Made by a program: the position numbers and the translations under genes | DNA from: Candidatus Thalassarchaeaceae archaeon | Lineage (GTDB): Archaea; Thermoplasmatota; Poseidoniia; Poseidoniales; Thalassarchaeaceae | DNA: 64,000 nucleotides | Reading direction: 5' to 3' | NCBI GenBank assembly: GCA_029250605.1 | Contig: JAQXEZ010000020.1 | Span: forward strand, 1-64,000 | In this document: positions 1 to 55,853 of the stretch, in pieces | Layout of the letters: every line of letters begins with the position of its first letter | Numbering within the stretch: the stretch's first letter is position 1 | The notes under the pieces: generated by a model | What the model saw: the letters and a program-made list of their open reading frames with translations, nothing else | What the model was told of the DNA's origin: nothing | Database searches by the model: none

Positions 1-200
1 ATCGATATCTTACCGGAAATCTCCTTTCTCGTGTCGTCGCTCGTTGACTCGGCGTTCTGCTGTAGCTCCTCGGCGGTCTTTATGATGATCGTCGAGGCCA
101 CAGCGGCTACTAGGATCAGGGCGATGAAAACGATCATCGCACCGATACCGATGGAGCCTCCCTCTTGGTTTCTTTCTACTGTCTGGTCGTATTCGCTCAT
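1..200 (-). CDS. Archaellin (archaeal flagellin), N-terminal part, cut by the window edge
   Basis: This is the filament subunit of the archaellum, the archaeal rotary motility structure. The gene starts at an ATG (200-198) and runs off the left edge, leaving 66 codons. The translation shows a short charged leader ending in EGG, followed by S-IGIGAMIVFIALILVAA. That is the class III (type IV pilin-like) signal of archaellins: the prepilin-type peptidase would cut between Gly15 and Ser16, and the hydrophobic helix forms the filament core. A polar helix (AEELQQNAESTSDDTRKE) follows, as is normal. Archaellin usually heads the archaellum operon, so assembly genes probably lie beyond the edge. A palindrome and a TATA-like element lie just upstream. 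The family call is strong; the symbol is left blank because only the N-terminus is visible. Confidence 0.88.
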   Translation of the reverse strand, partial: MSEYDQTVERNQEGGSIGIGAMIVFIALILVAAVASTIIIKTAEELQQNAESTSDDTRKEISGKIS

Positions 201-32916: not shown

Positions 32917-33765
32917 TCAGGCGTTTGCCATCATTTCGGTTGCTTTCTTGGCACCCATCCATGCGACAACACCGAAGCCGATCTTGTTGACCATGTCAGC
33001 GATGTTGTAGAGGACGGCCATTGTCTCCTGGCTTGCAGCATCGGAGAAGTTTACTTCTGGGCTGAATAGGTAGCCGATAGGGTAGATTATCCATCCGAAG
33101 ACGATGAAAGCTCGTAGAGCGTTGGTGCTCCATACCAACTCGTCTGCTATCTTGCTGTTGTCAACCCCAAGTCCGTCGGTGAACGGTGTACCGGTTGCGA
33201 CGATGATCATTGCCCATCCCATTCCTCCTAGGAGAAGGGCGAGGGTAGCGTTCATCATCCCCGACTCACCAGCATACCCGAAACCGATCATGATTAGTGC
33301 ACCAACGAAGCAAATCGCGGTGAAACCCATCCCGAGGACCTTGGTGTCTGTGATTGCATCCTTGCCAACCAGAGAAGGGAACTTTAGGGCCATTAGTGGT
33401 ACTGTGATGATCCAGTCCATGTACCTGTACTCGATACTCACTACGTCGTGATCGACGTACACCCCTCGCATGTAATAGTAGTGCAATGCTGCAATACCGA
33501 CTATTAGTGCGGAAATGGTCATCGTGGTTCGGAACTGTGGTGCTACATTGCTCCTCTCAACCAGGAAGAACACGAATGCAGCTCCCATTGCGATGTAACC
33601 TACGAAGAAGGTGAAGAAGGTCAGCATTCCGAGGTTATCGTAATCCTTCTCCAGGGGATTCACAGTCTCTGCAGATACAGATTGTGTTACAATCAAAGCC
33701 AGGCAGGTTGCAGCAATCGCCATAGCGGTCGTTCTTGGGCTAATTTTGGGACTTGAAAAATCCAT
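32917..33765 (-). CDS. Proton-pumping rhodopsin (proteorhodopsin family)
   Basis: 282 residues. Light-driven outward proton pump with retinal bound to Lys261 (NIADMVNKIGFG). N-terminal signal peptide about 1-32, then seven helices. By alignment with green proteorhodopsin the acceptor is Asp117 and Thr121 follows (RYMDWIITVP). The tuning position is Met125, which suggests green absorption. The cytoplasmic donor position, Glu108 in proteorhodopsin, is Lys128, so the motif is DTK rather than DTE, like the Lys donor of Exiguobacterium rhodopsin. The counter-ion histidine is kept as His95 (ALHYYYMRG). No carotenoid or retinal synthesis genes were found in the window. A TATA box lies about 24 bases before the ATG. 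DTK marks a pump, not a sensor. Confidence 0.95.
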   Translation of the reverse strand: MDFSSPKISPRTTAMAIAATCLALIVTQSVSAETVNPLEKDYDNLGMLTFFTFFVGYIAMGAAFVFFLVERSNVAPQFRTTMTISALIVGIAALHYYYMRGVYVDHDVVSIEYRYMDWIITVPLMALKFPSLVGKDAITDTKVLGMGFTAICFVGALIMIGFGYAGESGMMNATLALLLGGMGWAMIIVATGTPFTDGLGVDNSKIADELVWSTNALRAFIVFGWIIYPIGYLFSPEVNFSDAASQETMAVLYNIADMVNKIGFGVVAWMGAKKATEMMANA

Positions 33766-49179: not shown

Positions 49180-50118
49180 GTGATTAGGCGATCATTCTCG
49201 GTCGTTTTCATTGCCAGTCTGCTGATGGTTGGTGGTATTTCTTCCAGCGCTTCGGCCCAACTTCTGCCTGATACGGATCTGGAATGTGATGACTCTACGG
49301 AAATAGATCTCTCCAGTGGGGCCGGCAGTTCTCTGGTTAATTGCGAATTGACGAATCCTACCTCTCTTCCCCAAAAGGTGGAGTTGACCTATCAAGCGGG
49401 GGATCTGGATACGGCGGGACCCGGGAGCGTGACTGTTGGAGCCGGGGAGACCGAATCGTTCCAGGTTGTGCTGGCTTCCCCCACAGGTCAGTCGGCAGGG
49501 ACATACGAGGTCAACGTGAGTGCGGTGGTGACCGAGTGGAATGGGGTTCCAGTGAGTATTTTCGGATTCTCGGATGAGGAGGGGATCGAGGTGGAGGTTC
49601 TCCCCTACACCACGTGCTCTTCGTCCCGTCCTTCTGCTATCTTCGCTGAGGCCGGTGAAGACTTGGAGTTCTCCGTGACATACAACTGCGATAGCAACGA
49701 GGATAGCAGCATGGCAATCTCCCTACACCTACTGGAGAAGGGCAGTTCGCAGGAGAGCATGTGGCCGTCCGGTTTCAATGACATGTCGGTGGGAGGTTGC
49801 AATATCCAAAATCCGATGGGTTCGGCCAACTGCGATTTCCTCCTGACCACTCCCTCAAACCTCCAGGAGAAGTGGGAGGGTTGCCTGATTGTGGTTGACG
49901 AGATGACCGATCCGGGATGGTCGTGCTCGAGCGATTTCGCTTTCCCTCTAACTGTGAACGAGAAGGAGACTCTGGTCCCCTCGGTTGGGATTGATGTGAA
50001 TGGGACGGTGCTTGAGGACCTAGGTGTCACTGAGGAGAACCAGGTTTACTTCATCGGGGGAGGGGGGGTCCTAGTTGCCCTGCTCATCTCTCTGGTGGTT
50101 TTCTTGAGGCGTCGTTAA
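49180..50118 (+). CDS. Exported, membrane-anchored surface protein
   Basis: 312 residues, GTG start. Signal peptide about 1-27 (FSVVFIASLLMVGGISSSASA), then about 240 residues of beta-rich sequence with NTG-like modules (LVNCELTNPTSLPQKVELTYQAGDL, GAGETESFQVVLASPTG) and repeated cysteines, and a C-terminal membrane helix (GGGGVLVALLISLVVFL) ending in RRR. The overall plan resembles archaeal surface proteins with a C-terminal anchor. The cysteine-containing segments (TTCSSSRPS, TYNCDSNED, GGCNIQ, NCDFLL, EGCLIV, WSCSSD) may form disulfides. No enzymatic motif. It is divergent from the thermosome gene and shares the stop palindrome TTAA with the convergent gene. Confidence 0.78.
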   Translation: MIRRSFSVVFIASLLMVGGISSSASAQLLPDTDLECDDSTEIDLSSGAGSSLVNCELTNPTSLPQKVELTYQAGDLDTAGPGSVTVGAGETESFQVVLASPTGQSAGTYEVNVSAVVTEWNGVPVSIFGFSDEEGIEVEVLPYTTCSSSRPSAIFAEAGEDLEFSVTYNCDSNEDSSMAISLHLLEKGSSQESMWPSGFNDMSVGGCNIQNPMGSANCDFLLTTPSNLQEKWEGCLIVVDEMTDPGWSCSSDFAFPLTVNEKETLVPSVGIDVNGTVLEDLGVTEENQVYFIGGGGVLVALLISLVVFLRRR

Positions 50119-50441
50119 CCTAGGATGGTGACCATCCACCTGAGGAAAAGCGCCGAGACCACTCCGACGACAAGGGACGGGCCCGATGCGAAGCCGCATA
50201 CTGTGCTATAGAAGTAGAAGAGGGAGAGAGTTAGCAGCAGAAAGAAGCCGAAATCGATTGCCTGACTCCTTCCGAGGCCAGAGTGCTTGATTACATGGTC
50301 CCTCTCCCTGATTCCGAAAACCACGGCCACTAGCGCCGCCAACAAGATGGCGTGGCCGACGAACCAACCGATGGAGGAGCCGAAAACTGAGACTAGTTCA
50401 CCCTGGAACGTGCCGAGCATGATGGAGGCGAGGTCGAACAC
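50115..50441 (-). CDS. Small membrane protein (three helices)
   Basis: 108 residues; GTG start at 50441 or an ATG seven codons on. Hydrophobic segments: SIGWFVGHAILLAALVAVVFGI, AIDFGFFLLLTLSLFYFYSTVCGF, PSLVVGVVSALFLRWMVTIL. No recognised family. Its stop and that of the convergent surface-protein gene overlap in TTAA. The AT-rich stretch that starts just upstream of it marks the edge of the 50.5-54.9 kb island. Confidence 0.58.
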   Translation of the reverse strand: MFDLASIMLGTFQGELVSVFGSSIGWFVGHAILLAALVAVVFGIRERDHVIKHSGLGRSQAIDFGFFLLLTLSLFYFYSTVCGFASGPSLVVGVVSALFLRWMVTILG

Positions 50442-50630
50442 AAAACTAGCGGGAGAGCTGATATTCTTGAAGTGTGCGAGGGGCGCGACTCAGTTCTTCT
50501 GAATAATGAACTGCCCGCCAATGATTTTCAGGATGGAGATAGGTATTTTCTTAAAACTCTGAGTAACCAGGAAAAATAATGATTGGAGAAACGTACCACC
50601 TAACACGGGGGAGTAGAGATTAGAAATTTT

Positions 50631-51365
50631 TTGAAAAGGGCTCTAAGGCCTCTGCGTTTATTCTCTTCCAATTTTGTTACCCTAGTAGATCAAAACTCAA
50701 TTGTGAGGAAGGCATCATGGATTCTTGGAGCTGAAAAGGTTGAGGGAGACTATCTTGAGTTTGGAGTCTATAGGGGAGGGTCTCTAATCAAGGCCTATAA
50801 CGAGATGGAGTCTGTTTATCAAGAGCAAATGAGGGAGAGTGGCGGCAGGTCTAACCAGGCAGCTCTGGATGTGAGGAGGATTTGGTCGGAGATGAGGTTC
50901 TTCGCTTTCGACTCATTTCAAGGGTTACCGGAAATTACGGGTTTGGATGTCGAAGGTAGTGATTTCGAAGAGGGAGGCTGGTCGAGCAATGAAGAGGTAT
51001 TCAGGAGTAATCTGGCAAAATCCCTCTTTCCCATGGATAAATTAGTGACTGTTCCAGGTTGGTTCGAAGAAACGTGTATCGAGAAAACCAAGGAAAGGCA
51101 CAAAATGAGTAAGGCTGCGATTATTCACATAGACTGTGATCTATATTCGTCAACAAAAACCGTTCTGGAGTTCGTTGAGGATCTACTAGTGGATGGGACT
51201 GTGTTGATTTTCGATGATTGGTTTAATTTTAAGGGAAATCCCAACCTTGGCGAACAGAAGGCTTTCAGTGAGTGGTCTAATAATCTGAGTGATTGGGAAT
51301 TTGTCCAATATCAAAAAGAGGGGCCCTGGAGAAATAGTTTCATTGCCTCTTATCAGGGAAATTAG
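50631..51365 (+). CDS. TylF/MycF-type methyltransferase
   Basis: 244 residues with a TTG start. Macrocin O-methyltransferase (TylF) family, SAM- and Mg-dependent sugar O-methyltransferases. Signature segments are GDYLEFGVYRGGSLIKAY (SAM loop), FFAFDSFQGLPEITG, LVTVPGWFEETCI and the metal-binding AIIHIDCDLYSST, then LVDGTVLIFDDWFNF. The DCDLYSS and FDDW motifs supply Mg ligands in the family. Length is close to TylF (about 250). As the first gene of the AT-rich island it likely methylates a sugar hydroxyl of a surface glycan; the substrate is not known. Confidence 0.82.
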   Translation: MKRALRPLRLFSSNFVTLVDQNSIVRKASWILGAEKVEGDYLEFGVYRGGSLIKAYNEMESVYQEQMRESGGRSNQAALDVRRIWSEMRFFAFDSFQGLPEITGLDVEGSDFEEGGWSSNEEVFRSNLAKSLFPMDKLVTVPGWFEETCIEKTKERHKMSKAAIIHIDCDLYSSTKTVLEFVEDLLVDGTVLIFDDWFNFKGNPNLGEQKAFSEWSNNLSDWEFVQYQKEGPWRNSFIASYQGN

Positions 51366-51405
51366 TGAACGTGACACTAATTACTAGAGTGCGGCTGCGA
51401 TTGAT

Positions 51406-52230
51406 GTGGATTCAGAAGTAGATGTGGTTATTCCCACCTTCAGACGACCGGAGGCGCTTTCTTCCTGTCTAAAATCGCTAGAGTCACAGACCTTGGCGCC
51501 AGCTTCGATAGAGGTGGTTGACGACTCAGAGACCGACTATGGTCCCGGGATTTCGAGAAATATAGGGTGGAAGAGGGGTTCAGGGAGGTACGTTGCATTC
51601 ATCGATGATGACTGCTTGGCGAATCGTGATTGGATAGAAAATCTGCAGAGGGTGTTTTCGGAGAATGACGTCGGTGGTATTGAAGGTGGGATAACCACTA
51701 CGGACATCGATGGTGAGATGATCGATTTTAATCCCCCTCATCGATTTAAGTGGGACCGATTCAAAACTGCAAATATGGCTATTAGAAGGGATGTTCTTAC
51801 TGAGATTGGTGGTTTCGATGAGCGATACTTCCTTCACAGGGAAGACACTGACCTGGCATGGAGAGTCATTGATGCTGGACACAGGATGGTATGGGTACCA
51901 GAATGTAAGGTTCATCATCCCGAGCCAATAGGAGTGCATGGAGCGGTATATGGAGCATATCCTCGTTCAGAACAGTTACTATATCATTGCAATCCGAATA
52001 AGTTTGTCGAAAGCGCTGCGAGTTTGATTTCGAGGGAGAGCATAGCAGATGGCTCTCTTAGGAAGCTCCAGAGAGATATGAGAACGTTGCAAAACCCTCC
52101 AGATGTGAATCCACTCAGTAGGATTCAGTCATGGACACTTTGGACAAGAGCATGGTTTTTAGCATTATTCTGGGCAATAAGAAAGGGAACTGTTGGTGAC
52201 CCTAAGAAATCCAGTCTTTCTATAAAATAA
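51406..52230 (+). CDS. Family 2 glycosyltransferase
   Basis: 274 residues, GTG start. GT-A fold: VDVVIPTFRRPEALSSCLKSLESQ, with an early aspartate pair (VVDDSE), the metal-binding DxD-type motif RYVAFIDDDCLANRDW, and the base/acceptor region GGFDERYFLHREDTDLAWRVIDAGHRMVWVPECKVHH typical of GT2. C-terminal region is helical. Transfers a sugar from a nucleotide-sugar donor to a growing glycan; in this setting probably a surface glycan. The gene follows the TylF-like methyltransferase by about 40 bases. Confidence 0.87.
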   Translation: MDSEVDVVIPTFRRPEALSSCLKSLESQTLAPASIEVVDDSETDYGPGISRNIGWKRGSGRYVAFIDDDCLANRDWIENLQRVFSENDVGGIEGGITTTDIDGEMIDFNPPHRFKWDRFKTANMAIRRDVLTEIGGFDERYFLHREDTDLAWRVIDAGHRMVWVPECKVHHPEPIGVHGAVYGAYPRSEQLLYHCNPNKFVESAASLISRESIADGSLRKLQRDMRTLQNPPDVNPLSRIQSWTLWTRAWFLALFWAIRKGTVGDPKKSSLSIK

Positions 52231-52254
52231 GAGTCGTGATACTGATTTTTTGAT

Positions 52255-52929
52255 TTACTTTCTGTATCCGAACTCTGTGAAATCAATCTTAAATTTATCA
52301 TAGATTATTTCTTTGATTTCATCTTTCAGTTGTATTTCTTCTCCTGAGTCTCTTGTCTTGTTCAGAATTTTTAATTCATCAAAGTTAAATCTCTTTCGAA
52401 TATTCTCATAATCTTCGGGAAGATCCTCCATGCGACCAATGTGTTGCATTTTCGCCCCTCTTGAGTGAATAATGCTGTATTGTGTCTTGAAGTGTCTATC
52501 ACAAAGAAAATTTGGAATTTTGGATATTTTTCTGACAAAATCTTCGAAAGAGTCGTCATTTTTTAGATAACCAAAAAGATAATTCGAGTAGAGGAATTGT
52601 GAATCGTCAGCCATATTGAACTTGTTTTTGTAGCAAGAAATTATTCTGCCATAGGGATTTCTGACGTATGCGAATGAGAAATATTTCCTCTTTTTTCTAG
52701 GGACTCTCTTGTGAGAGAATTCTCTAGTATGGAAATGGATTGATCTATCCTTGGGAAATTCTCCAAACATTGAGGTCTTAATTGAGGAGCTACCAGATTT
52801 TGCTACACTCGCAAATACGACTTCTAATTCATCCAGTATTAGGAAATCCGATGAGTCCAGATTTCCATGAACAGTCACATGGATGATGTCTCTGATGAAC
52901 TGATAGGTATTTTTGAAAGAAAATCTCAT
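52255..52929 (-). CDS. Carbohydrate sulfotransferase (Sulfotransfer_2-like)
   Basis: 224 residues, very AT-rich gene. The PAPS 5'-phosphosulfate loop appears as VFASVAKSGSSSIKTSMFG and the 3'-phosphate motif as FSFAYVRNPYGRIISCYKNKF, the two signatures of the heparan/chondroitin-type sulfotransferase group. The intervening histidine region (SIHFHTREFSHKRVP) is compatible with a catalytic base. The C-terminus shows a helical block (KDEIKEIIYDKFKIDF). Sulfates a sugar hydroxyl using PAPS. Converges with the glycosyltransferase gene. PAPS-making genes are not in the window. Confidence 0.83.
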   Translation of the reverse strand: MRFSFKNTYQFIRDIIHVTVHGNLDSSDFLILDELEVVFASVAKSGSSSIKTSMFGEFPKDRSIHFHTREFSHKRVPRKKRKYFSFAYVRNPYGRIISCYKNKFNMADDSQFLYSNYLFGYLKNDDSFEDFVRKISKIPNFLCDRHFKTQYSIIHSRGAKMQHIGRMEDLPEDYENIRKRFNFDELKILNKTRDSGEEIQLKDEIKEIIYDKFKIDFTEFGYRK

Positions 52930-52955
52930 ATTATCACGATGAATTTTAAATCTAG

Positions 52956-53894
52956 CTAGATGATTACAGACTTGGGGATGTATTTCTCTAGATTTTCCAT
53001 GAATTCTATGTCCTCAATCAAGTTAAGTCGAATTTTTTCACTCGCCTCATCTGAAATTTCCTGTTTTTCTGATGGCACATATTTCCACCCCTTGGATCTA
53101 ATAGGATCCAATAATACCTTTCTCAAGCCTCTTGTTGGAATGACAACCTTCGCCAGTGAAAAGGCCCAATTTGGGGGATTTCGCAGAAATCTCCTATAAC
53201 TCGAGTTAGACAACTGTCCTCTAGGATTCTTCACATTCAGATCTCTAGGCATACCCGCTGGATCAATTCCAAGCCAATCACTGATTTCATCTAGGACCAT
53301 TCGTGGATTGGAGGCAATAGACTTCAATTGAACTACTCTGACTCTATCTACCCCAATCTCATGAATCCAGTTTTTTACATATGATGAAAATCGCGGATAT
53401 GTAAGGAAACCCCAGGTCTCCGGATCTTCTGCGCTAGCAATCCAATTCTGACTGTCTATTTTTGAAATCAAACTCTCGAAAGATGTTTTGAAGTGTTCTG
53501 TTTTCTTCTGCTGATGGAAAAGACTGATCATTAGGTCATACGGATCTCTTACCGTGATTATTACTCTCGCTTCCGGCATGAGGTCCCTGACAGTCTCCAA
53601 GGCTCTCTTAGAGTAAAGATGCTGTGGTGACTTGTCGATAATGAGTCTCTCGCCCTTGAAATAATCCATATCTGCCTCATGTGGGAGAAATAGAGTTCCT
53701 CTTGGTTTGCTCATTTCGAATGGATAGTCGACGACCCCTCCAAGCAAAAAACCACTCTCAACTGCTCCTGAGTTGATTCTCTCCCACGGATGGTATACTT
53801 CGTTATGCTTTCTCAACCACAATAGAAGGGAAGTGGTCCCGCATTTGGGGCCTCCGACGAGAAGGAGGTTTGGAGCAGGTTCTATAGCTCTCAT
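52956..53894 (-). CDS. Sulfotransferase (PAPS-dependent)
   Basis: 312 residues. 5'-PSB loop: PNLLLVGGPKCGTTSLLLWL with the catalytic-type lysine; 3'-PB region: ARVIITVRDPYDLMISLFHQQKK. The downstream block YPRFSSYVKNWIHEIGVDRVRVVQLKSIASNPRMVLDEISDWLGIDP matches the sulfotransferase family 1 core, shared with [heparan sulfate]-glucosamine and related enzymes. Distinct in sequence from the preceding sulfotransferase, so the island encodes at least two chemically different enzymes. It is followed at 53937 by a third. Confidence 0.86.
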   Translation of the reverse strand: MRAIEPAPNLLLVGGPKCGTTSLLLWLRKHNEVYHPWERINSGAVESGFLLGGVVDYPFEMSKPRGTLFLPHEADMDYFKGERLIIDKSPQHLYSKRALETVRDLMPEARVIITVRDPYDLMISLFHQQKKTEHFKTSFESLISKIDSQNWIASAEDPETWGFLTYPRFSSYVKNWIHEIGVDRVRVVQLKSIASNPRMVLDEISDWLGIDPAGMPRDLNVKNPRGQLSNSSYRRFLRNPPNWAFSLAKVVIPTRGLRKVLLDPIRSKGWKYVPSEKQEISDEASEKIRLNLIEDIEFMENLEKYIPKSVII

Positions 53895-53936
53895 TCCACA
53901 CTGGGAAATATCGTCAACTGATAAGTACAGATGGTG

Positions 53937-54848
53937 CTATTTTACTGCATTATTGTTGATGGTTTCCATCCACTCAGTTGTATCGAATTTGGTCAGATTT
54001 TGCAATTGTGCTAGATCTTTGCATACTTCCTCACTACAGGTGGAAAAATGAAGTTGGCCGGGATGCTCCGGCTTGCTTGGGTTGGTTCGTCTACCTAATA
54101 GTGGCAAATAGTAGATGTTGATGTCTCTCAATACAAGGTAATTTACGATTGGTGACTTCAAGAAGTTGGGGACTAAAGAGAATATTATTCTGATGAGTTT
54201 TCCGAAAGGGGTAATTCTTCTTCGCTTAGATGCCCTGTTTGAGTTGGCTAATTGGTTTATTGAATAATTGTGGTTGTGTAGTCCCAGGAATTCCTCAATT
54301 TCACTCAGCACCATCTCCGGCGACTCTCGCATCCTAGAGCTGTCGAAAATATAGAAATCTGATAGGGGGAAAAACTCCAGCCAGTGAGCCATTGATTTTC
54401 CATATAGAGAGTCTTCCTTCAGTCTAGGGTCCTCCCAGGCGACCCGGAAGTCGTCCCAATCGGCCCCCCATCTTTTGTCTAATCCGATATCGGTAATCAT
54501 CCTCCAATGACTAAATGCTCTGTCAACAGGTTCTCGGAGAGATAGGATGAATTTTGGATTCTCGAACTTTTCCGAAATCCTAGCTGGAGAGATGGGGCAG
54601 GAGAATGTATGTATGGAGCCATCTAGCCTTATCCCGTCTCCTTTGAATAATCTGAAGTATTCTGTCCAATCGGGTTCCTCTGTAGACCTTCGAAATGTCC
54701 CCTTGTGGGACGTTATGATGTTTGGCTCCTTCGGATCCGATAAGCAGATTGAGGGGTTCTGAGACAATGTACTGGCTAGCCAGGTTGTTCCGGCCTTTGG
54801 GACGCCAATTAGGAATGCATGAGTCTCAGTCACCCTGCCCGAATCCAT
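53937..54848 (-). CDS. Sulfotransferase (PAPS-dependent)
   Basis: 303 residues from the ATG at 54848; a TTG seven codons earlier is open. 5'-PSB: HAFLIGVPKAGTTWLASTLS; 3'-PB: KFILSLREPVDRAFSHWRMI, and KSMAHWLEFFPLSDFYIFDSSRMRESPEMVLSEIEEFLGLHNH completes the family core. C-terminal ~90 residues are basic and variable. A family 1-type heparan/glycan sulfotransferase. It ends the island; a GC-richer homoserine-kinase-like gene starts 75 bases beyond on the opposite strand. Confidence 0.86.
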   Translation of the reverse strand: MDSGRVTETHAFLIGVPKAGTTWLASTLSQNPSICLSDPKEPNIITSHKGTFRRSTEEPDWTEYFRLFKGDGIRLDGSIHTFSCPISPARISEKFENPKFILSLREPVDRAFSHWRMITDIGLDKRWGADWDDFRVAWEDPRLKEDSLYGKSMAHWLEFFPLSDFYIFDSSRMRESPEMVLSEIEEFLGLHNHNYSINQLANSNRASKRRRITPFGKLIRIIFSLVPNFLKSPIVNYLVLRDINIYYLPLLGRRTNPSKPEHPGQLHFSTCSEEVCKDLAQLQNLTKFDTTEWMETINNNAVK

Positions 54849-54923
54849 ATGACGCGCAAGAGAAGACAAGTTAAGTCCTAACCGAAGAGAAGGGGCAATA
54901 TAGGAAGGAGAGGGGGGTGAATT

Positions 54924-55853
54924 ATGAATAACGAAGTTGGTACAGCTGAAGTAGAGTGGCTTCTAACTTTGGCCGAGTTACCAGTCTTGGATTCGATGGA
55001 GCCCCTCGAGGGGGGGTGGGACAATTCGAACTTCCTACTGAGGCTCAAAGGAGGGAGTGAGGTTGTTCTGAAGGCATGGTTCGCAAACAGTGTAGAAGAA
55101 GTGGTTAGGGTGGTGCAGCGACACATCCACCTCGACTCACATGGTATCCCGACTACAGTACCGCTTCGACTATCCGACGGAGGTCATATTGCAGAAAGAA
55201 ATGGTGTCGCCTGGACGATATTGCCCTTCGTTCCTGGAGGAATGCTTGGGTGTGATGGGGATTCTCTGAGAAGTCTTGGAGAGGTTATGGGTAAAATGGG
55301 TTCAATCCCTCCTGCAGACTGCTTTCCCGAAAGTTACAGGATGGGGTTCGATCTATTCGACGAGGTGATTTCCCTCTCTTCCGGGATGGGGGTGTCAGAA
55401 CCATTCGTCGAAATGCTGTCTTCACAGATTGCTGGGATTACGCGTGATTTCCCCTCTGATCTACCAATGGGGATCCTCCATGGAGATTTGTTCCCGGACA
55501 ACGTGATTGGGAGCGGGGGTCGAGTATCTGCTATCCTCGATTTGGAAGAGGCATGGACCGGACCGATGGCATTCGACCTTGCAATGGCGTGCGTAGGATT
55601 CGGATGGGATGGCACTGTTCCGGCGTGGGAGCGGTGGAAGGCCCTGTTCGATGGGTACCAGAGTGTCAGAAAGCTCACACAGGACGAGGTGGATTCCCTC
55701 CCATTCCTTCACTATTTTGCCACACTGTCCATAGCCGCCTGGAGATTCTGGAAGCACAATCTTAGCGAGCCTGACGAGTTTCTCTCGGACAGGTATGTGG
55801 AAATGGTTGATAGGCTAAGCGTGGAGATTGATTTTTCCGAGGTGATTGGATGA
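54924..55853 (+). CDS. APH-fold kinase, probably homoserine kinase (ThrB type II)
   Basis: 309 residues with a good ribosome site (GGAGAGGGGGG). Aminoglycoside-phosphotransferase fold. Nucleotide-loop region EGGWDNSNFLLRLKG, invariant-type lysine EVVLKAWFAN, catalytic loop MGILHGDLFPDNVIG, and metal-binding AILDLEEAWTGPMAFDLAMAC. The HGDLFPDNV form and the length match the type II homoserine kinases (ThrB of the APH fold). Phosphorylates homoserine in threonine synthesis; threonine synthase lies 5 kb away. Other APH-family small-molecule kinases are possible. It overlaps the MOSC gene by four bases (ATGA). Confidence 0.75.
   Translation: MNNEVGTAEVEWLLTLAELPVLDSMEPLEGGWDNSNFLLRLKGGSEVVLKAWFANSVEEVVRVVQRHIHLDSHGIPTTVPLRLSDGGHIAERNGVAWTILPFVPGGMLGCDGDSLRSLGEVMGKMGSIPPADCFPESYRMGFDLFDEVISLSSGMGVSEPFVEMLSSQIAGITRDFPSDLPMGILHGDLFPDNVIGSGGRVSAILDLEEAWTGPMAFDLAMACVGFGWDGTVPAWERWKALFDGYQSVRKLTQDEVDSLPFLHYFATLSIAAWRFWKHNLSEPDEFLSDRYVEMVDRLSVEIDFSEVIG

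Follow-up and report, generated by a model that had tools for sequence, protein, structure and literature searches.

The window analysed here comprises the first 64,000 nucleotides of contig JAQXEZ010000020.1 (104 kb), from the genome of a Candidatus Thalassarchaeaceae archaeon (Marine Group IIb, MGIIb, of Poseidoniales), G000 in our collection, which is 1.48 Mb in size, 86% complete and probably a metagenome-assembled genome (MAG). At positions 50,442–54,900 it carries a block of putative glycan-modification genes, bracketed by mem108, a gene for a small membrane protein, and by a gene of the APH family; this block and the site it occupies in related genomes are the subject of this report. 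Marine Group II (MGII) archaea, which have not been cultured, occur in great abundance in the surface ocean, and to our knowledge their own surface is almost entirely uncharacterised.

Gene Content and Composition of the Block

The block comprises genes for a TylF-type methyltransferase and a family 2 glycosyltransferase (GT2), both on the forward strand, followed by three sulfotransferase genes of different families on the reverse strand. This content, read from the sequence in a first-pass annotation, is borne out by the open reading frames (ORFs) and by the Pfam matches, all five products exceeding the gathering cut-offs, and so is the low G+C content claimed for the block: it is 0.36–0.46 within 50.5–55 kb against about 0.54–0.55 outside, recovering on both sides. 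The value for the whole interval is 0.427 compared with 0.546 in the flanks, and at third codon positions (GC3) 0.444 for the cassette compared with 0.607 for the core genes of the same genome. The right border is sharp (about 54,870–54,924), and the left one lies at mem108 or slightly to its left.

The first gene (50,631–51,365, +) codes for a TylF/macrocin-type S-adenosylmethionine-dependent O-methyltransferase (PF05711, 51.5 bits, cut-off 23), 93% identical in amino acid sequence to that of G009, another carrier of this gene set, with a ratio of nonsynonymous to synonymous divergence (dN/dS) of 0.07; its start codon is uncertain, the TTG at 50,631 reading TTA in the closest copy. The product of the second (51,406–52,230, +; PF00535, 56.1 bits) belongs to a Poseidoniales-specific GT2 subfamily, in which the motifs DDDC and EDTD are invariant across the alignment and whose best matches beyond Poseidoniales reach only about 33–36% identity. 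Upstream of both, at 50,493–50,552 (−), tblastn with the G009 copy of a PF13578 methyltransferase aligns residues 175–194 at 75% identity (E = 1.6e-5). Of this second methyltransferase gene only a remnant of 20 codons is left in the window, whereas it is intact at this place in the other cassettes of the same type (type A, see below), with intact copies in G009, G026, G004 and G010.

The sulfotransferase genes code for a Sulfotransfer_2 protein (52,255–52,929, −; PF03567, 60.8 bits, cut-off 22), a Sulfotransfer_3/1 protein (52,956–53,894, −; PF13469, 43.4 bits; PF00685, 37 bits; motif GGPKCGTTS) and a Sulfotransfer_1/3 protein of the family here called c0 (53,937–54,869, −; PF00685, 44.8 bits; Sulfotransfer_3, 39.3 bits), the most widespread sulfotransferase family among the cassettes. 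In the PF03567 protein the segments VAKSGSSS and VRNPYGRIIS resemble the 5'-phosphosulfate-binding (5'-PSB) and 3'-phosphate-binding (3'-PB) motifs, with KSGSS/KSACS and VRNPY variants, and a sequence search of the PDB gave no relative of this protein. The relatives of the Sulfotransfer_3/1 protein in the PDB are 3rnl and heparan sulfate 3-O-sulfotransferases, and the solved relatives of the c0 protein are heparan sulfate 3-O- and N-sulfotransferases; in an alignment of c0 proteins the motifs PKxGTTW and REPVxRxxSHW are nearly invariant, PKxGTT(W/S) and REPVxRxxS being conserved in ten proteins of the family. With the curated cut-offs passed and the 5'-PSB and 3'-PB motifs intact, all three are predicted to depend on 3'-phosphoadenosine 5'-phosphosulfate (PAPS).

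The left anchor, mem108 (50,115–50,441, −), is conserved, and nearly every relative with a readable site has it there. The right anchor (54,924–55,853, +) is a core gene coding for an APH-family homoserine-kinase-like protein (PF01636, 94 bits; PRK05231, 97 bits, below the cut-off of that model). Its match holds one TAG in each of four closely related genomes (G001, G005, G009 and G012), which could mark either a different start region or a disrupted gene.

The Cassette Site in Related Genomes

The genus is represented in the collection by 28 genomes, with the right anchor present in 20 and the remaining ones 45–76% complete. Most of the genomes compared are MAGs (completeness 45–94%), and the gene calls are ORF-based. 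In every genome of the genus with an assembled interval, the space between mem108 and the APH gene is 2.4–5.2 kb long and filled with a glycosyltransferase gene (GT2 or GT4), one to three sulfotransferase genes and often a methyltransferase gene, nothing else being recognisable. The sulfotransferases of these cassettes fall into eight sequence groups. Nine gene contents, types A to I, assigned manually from blast clusters, are distinguished at this one site when the sister genus, the source of type I, is included. In two more distant genera the site holds a GT4 gene paired with a sulfotransferase gene, and in genera without sulfotransferases it is occupied by genes for a Gfo/Idh oxidoreductase and a GT4. 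Sulfotransferase genes are also found elsewhere: a pair of families c12 and c9 beside a gene for a 527-aa protein (G004:C2, G023:C30), and, in low-GC genomes including those of genus g6, clusters of a GT2 gene with c9, c0 and c12 sulfotransferase genes remote from the mem108 and APH anchors.

The types are scattered on the core tree (maximum likelihood, six flanking core genes, 2,346 columns), so that at least 12 changes are needed where 8 would be sufficient. The sister genomes G000 and G013 (support 100/99) carry type A and type B, respectively, a single shallow clade of six very close genomes contains types A, C and D, and type D is found in three separate places.

The block could still be a single AT-rich island acquired horizontally once, at a site that is not allelic. 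Its G+C and GC3 values, low relative to the host, and the occurrence of the same five genes in distant relatives agree with such an origin, but all readable relatives, two other genera included, hold different yet functionally equivalent blocks at this position, which makes it quite improbable. The block is not a one-off island but one allele at a cassette site that every readable relative within the genus has filled.

Exchange between Species

The type A cassette is carried by G000, G009 and G026, and the grouping of these three genomes in a single clade is rejected by the approximately unbiased (AU) test (p = 1.7e-47). G009 is the single-amplified genome AG-422-I20, its single-cell status being presumed from the AG- naming used by the project. 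The DNA identity between G000 and G009 is mostly 67–78% in the flanks (72–76% for core genes), rises to 85–95% at about 50.4–54.87 kb, and is 54–61% immediately to the right. The same contrast is seen at four-fold degenerate sites, 15–27% of which differ in the cassette against 59–81% in the flanking core genes except mem108, and in synonymous divergence (dS, Nei–Gojobori), 0.26–0.42 in the cassette compared with 2.4–2.6 in the core. The cassette genes, with dN/dS of 0.07–0.18, are under purifying selection and hence presumably functional.

The proposal of lateral acquisition in the first-pass annotation is upheld by the presence of the same cassette in distant species and of a different one in the sister genome, together with the AU test, and its case is far stronger than G+C content alone would make it; the picture of a one-off island is the part that has to be given up. 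Ancient alleles maintained by balancing selection and sorted among lineages, with no recent exchange, offer another account of the same distribution. Type D alleles (GT4c17 with STc10) look old, their counterparts in other genera being 59–67% identical, and the type A copy of G026 is 65–85% identical, near its core divergence, as that account would have it. The cassette dS between G000 and G009, however, is six- to ten-fold below that of the core, which requires transfer after the species split, and an explanation by ancient alleles alone is hardly probable.

A further possibility is that a chimeric assembly placed the cassette of another strain into the G000 contig. G000 being probably a MAG, hypervariable loci being error-prone and the N-terminal part of APH being divergent as well could all be adduced for it. 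On the other side, the contig is 104 kb long, the G000 copy, at 7–12% from that of G009, is no stray piece of that strain, and a single-cell genome shows the same site pattern and the same cassette in another background; since G009 is single-amplified, mis-binning is excluded on its side. A chimera is therefore highly improbable.

In each of the three hosts of type A the cassette has a GC3 of 0.42–0.44, against 0.61, 0.54 and 0.44 for their core genes, and this constancy suggests a low-GC member, for instance the G026 lineage, as its probable source. mem108 seems to have travelled with the cassette into the G009 background, since by amino acid comparison the window and G009 proteins are 78% identical, while identity is 53% for mem108 of the G009 sister genomes and 66% for mem312, its neighbour in G009. 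At the other end, the first 0.5 kb or so of the APH gene (54,880–55,400) is 58–70% identical in the closest relatives against about 84% beyond, in figures that do not separate the synonymous share. Such divergence is expected near a recombination border, and the left border is without a clear peak. Viral contigs, considered as a vehicle for the cassette genes, gave remote matches only (24–33%) and were rejected.

PAPS Supply

Sulfation was regarded in the first-pass annotation as unlikely should PAPS-making genes be missing from the genome. This check turned out half positive: a kinase for adenosine 5'-phosphosulfate (APS) and CysQ, a phosphatase for 3'-phosphoadenosine 5'-phosphate (PAP), are present, but no canonical ATP sulfurylase was found. 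The APS kinase is fused to a nucleotidyltransferase and encoded at G000:C19 (locus L041; 8373–9263, −), adjoining cysQ, whose product scores 241.1 bits with TIGR01331 (cut-off 228.8). The kinase domain matches PF01583 with 131.3 bits (cut-off 21.1) and narrowly misses the NCBIfam apsK equivalog-domain model (131.4 vs 138.7). The second domain, of ca. 130 aa, is NadM-like with an HxGH motif and resembles nucleotide adenylyltransferases specific for nicotinamide mononucleotide in sequence; as the genome has three further nucleotidyltransferases of the same class, NAD does not obviously require it. The structure predicted for the fusion, of mediocre confidence (pLDDT 71.6), has APS kinases as its top Foldseek matches and gives no indication of the substrate of the second domain.

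The fusion is 77–96% identical across host genera, and three further genomes have a sulfotransferase gene of a cassette family between the kinase and cysQ. Of the nine genera that possess PF00685 sulfotransferases, seven have an APS kinase, compared with none of the nine that lack them (Fisher p = 0.001, with no correction for ancestry). Only genera with the APS-kinase module carry CysQ of this type; with this query it is absent from the g10 matches and found in g15 only on a mis-binned contig. Two contigs call for caution. G077:C43 (4.7 kb), in a genome of family f2, carries an APS kinase with a sulfotransferase and is probably mis-binned, its fusion protein being identical over the region present to that of G047 from family f1. 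G070:C19 (9 kb, G+C 0.25), with a distant version of the fusion (PHROG 10255) directly beside a PF00685 sulfotransferase gene, looks phage-like and was excluded as host evidence for APS kinase. PHROG 10255 is a related fusion of phages. The archaeal fusion has no close relative in the viral contigs and only remote ones among annotated phages.

As to the preceding step, Sat (PF01747) was found in none of 29 genomes, and within this genus CysD (PF01507) gave only short weak matches and CysNC was not found. Only g6 and g15, which are exactly the genera that have CysNC, possess a true CysD (E about 1e-56), and neither protein was detected in genera with the fusion. A 415-aa neighbour of the APS kinase considered as CysN turned out to be FtsY. 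The order of genes is cysQ–[fusion]–prefoldin-alpha-like–ftsY, compared with cysQ–[cysD–cysNC]–prefoldin-alpha-like–ftsY in g6 (the prefoldin-alpha-like gene was named by eye, and its homology across genera comes from blast). Because the fusion occupies the CysD–CysNC slot, an ATP sulfurylase may have gone unrecognised in its second domain, and in the simplest reading the fusion alone may do the work of CysD, CysN and CysC. PAPS supply for the sulfotransferases is thus plausible from gene content. It is tentatively suggested that the fusion is a compact PAPS synthase, in which a NadM-like nucleotidyltransferase replaces ATP sulfurylase, feeding PAPS to the cassettes. If so, surface types would be switched by sulfation driven by a new sulfate-activating enzyme; already as it stands, the locus is a pointer to archaeal sulfation of the PAPS type and, possibly, to a missing enzyme of sulfate activation.

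For MGIIb, Orellana et al. (2019, PMC6864105) described APS kinase and proposed that PAPS feeds sulfotransferases. They reported cysD and cysN, unlike the situation in this genus, with its kinase fused to a NadM-like nucleotidyltransferase. As regards the remark in the first-pass annotation that such sulfotransferase clusters are little described, sulfotransferases and PAPS in MGIIb are already mentioned there; a description of this locus for MGII was not found in the open-licence literature.

A Probable Replacement Island for Glycan Decoration

Replacement flexible genomic islands have been described in aquatic prokaryotes (Lopez-Perez et al. 2014, PMC4033161). The block shares with them the fixed place, the differing clusters of like function, the lack of mobile elements and the exchange of whole units between divergent lineages, and possibly also the raised divergence at a border, which in such islands is mostly synonymous: relatives hold different genes of equivalent function in the same location, and divergent backgrounds hold the same version. 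We consider it likely, with a probability of about three in four, that the block is such an island, the type A allele of an exchangeable glycan-decoration cassette residing between mem108 and the APH gene in Ca. Thalassarchaeaceae.

Several points weigh against this interpretation. The islands of PMC4033161 are swapped within species, above about 96% average nucleotide identity, and are near-identical afterwards, whereas the present exchange crosses species sharing about 75% nucleotide identity, which makes the block a variant and not a typical member of the class. The borders contain no integrase, mobile element, flanking or otherwise notable repeat, or adjacent tRNA gene (a tRNA-Leu gene lies 2.6 kb from the cassette), on which ground capture by a mobile element or integrase was rejected, and the ends of the recombination tract are without statistical proof. 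The site has no agl cluster, flippase or polymerase gene, so that surface exposure is only inferred. Lastly, genus g8 has a cassette of GT4c17 and STc10 at the site, but no APS kinase was detected in either of its genomes (G034 and G044, 86–89% complete).

A role in glycan modification is the natural reading of a glycosyltransferase encoded together with sulfotransferases and a methyltransferase. Alternatively, these enzymes could make a small sulfated metabolite or a sulfolipid. Small alcohols, lipids and polyketides are further substrates of Sulfotransfer_1 and Sulfotransfer_3 enzymes, which together with the lack of glycan-export genes at the site speaks for such a product. Against it stand the glycosyltransferase gene in essentially every fully assembled cassette, the heparan sulfate sulfotransferases among the solved relatives of two of the three sulfotransferases, and the allelic variability, typical of exposed structures; a metabolite or sulfolipid product is rather unlikely.

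In the proposed glycan decoration, a core glycan would be built elsewhere in the genome (AglB/STT3), the cassette glycosyltransferase would add a sugar to this lipid- or protein-linked glycan, the sulfotransferases would place PAPS-derived sulfate on it, and the methyltransferase would cap a hydroxyl; PAPS would come from the fixed fusion module and PAP would be removed by CysQ. Different cassettes would give different surface sugar types, one swap altering the exposed epitope in a single step. Whole cassettes would pass from species to species, the simplest route being homologous recombination within the conserved flanks, and their diversity would probably be kept by viral or grazer pressure. 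AglB/STT3 is found in 20 of 21 genomes, not beside the cassette. Archaellin, proposed in the first-pass annotation, is a possible carrier of the glycan, with nothing decisive for or against it, genes or fragments for it being present in the genus; a partial one (PF01917) lies at the contig start (window positions 6–158, −), away from the cassette. Another possible carrier is the choice-of-anchor T secreted surface protein encoded at 49,180–50,118 (+), a conserved core gene of the left flank outside the cassette, with a C-terminal GGIII-type transmembrane anchor (NCBIfam NF041740, 70.8 bits, cut-off 70; NF041738, 23.8 bits, cut-off 22), though with only two N-X-S/T sequons.

This kind of island is already known; what is new is its sulfotransferase content and the exchange between species. 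Replacement islands (PMC4033161) comprise clusters for surface polysaccharide, the flagellum or S-layer glycosylation, while the cassettes here are 2.4–5.2 kb in size and dominated by sulfotransferases. GI1 of Haloquadratum walsbyi (PMC4535781) is likewise an archaeal surface-related island with lineage-specific versions arising by recombination, but its products are the cell surface glycoproteins as such, mobile elements play a part in it, and no sulfotransferases are named in it. In Halobacterium salinarum two dedicated enzymes, Agl30 and Agl31, sulfate the N-linked tetrasaccharide of the surface (PMC11980604), and methylation belongs to the same pathway (PMC13308652). Agl30 and Agl31 are members of the alkaline-phosphatase superfamily encoded in the aglB cluster, in contrast to the cassette enzymes, which are of the PAPS-type Sulfotransfer_1/2/3 families and lie away from aglB. 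By analogy, the trading of cassettes may be likened to the swapping of capsule or O-antigen types in bacteria. With nine contents at one site and evidence of swaps between species, the locus provides a concrete, typeable handle on surface variation, and type switching driven by viruses or grazers can now be put to the test with metagenomes and single cells already available.

Elsewhere in the window, an ORF identified by eye as proteorhodopsin-like is located at 32,917–33,765 (−); proteorhodopsin is typical for MGII.

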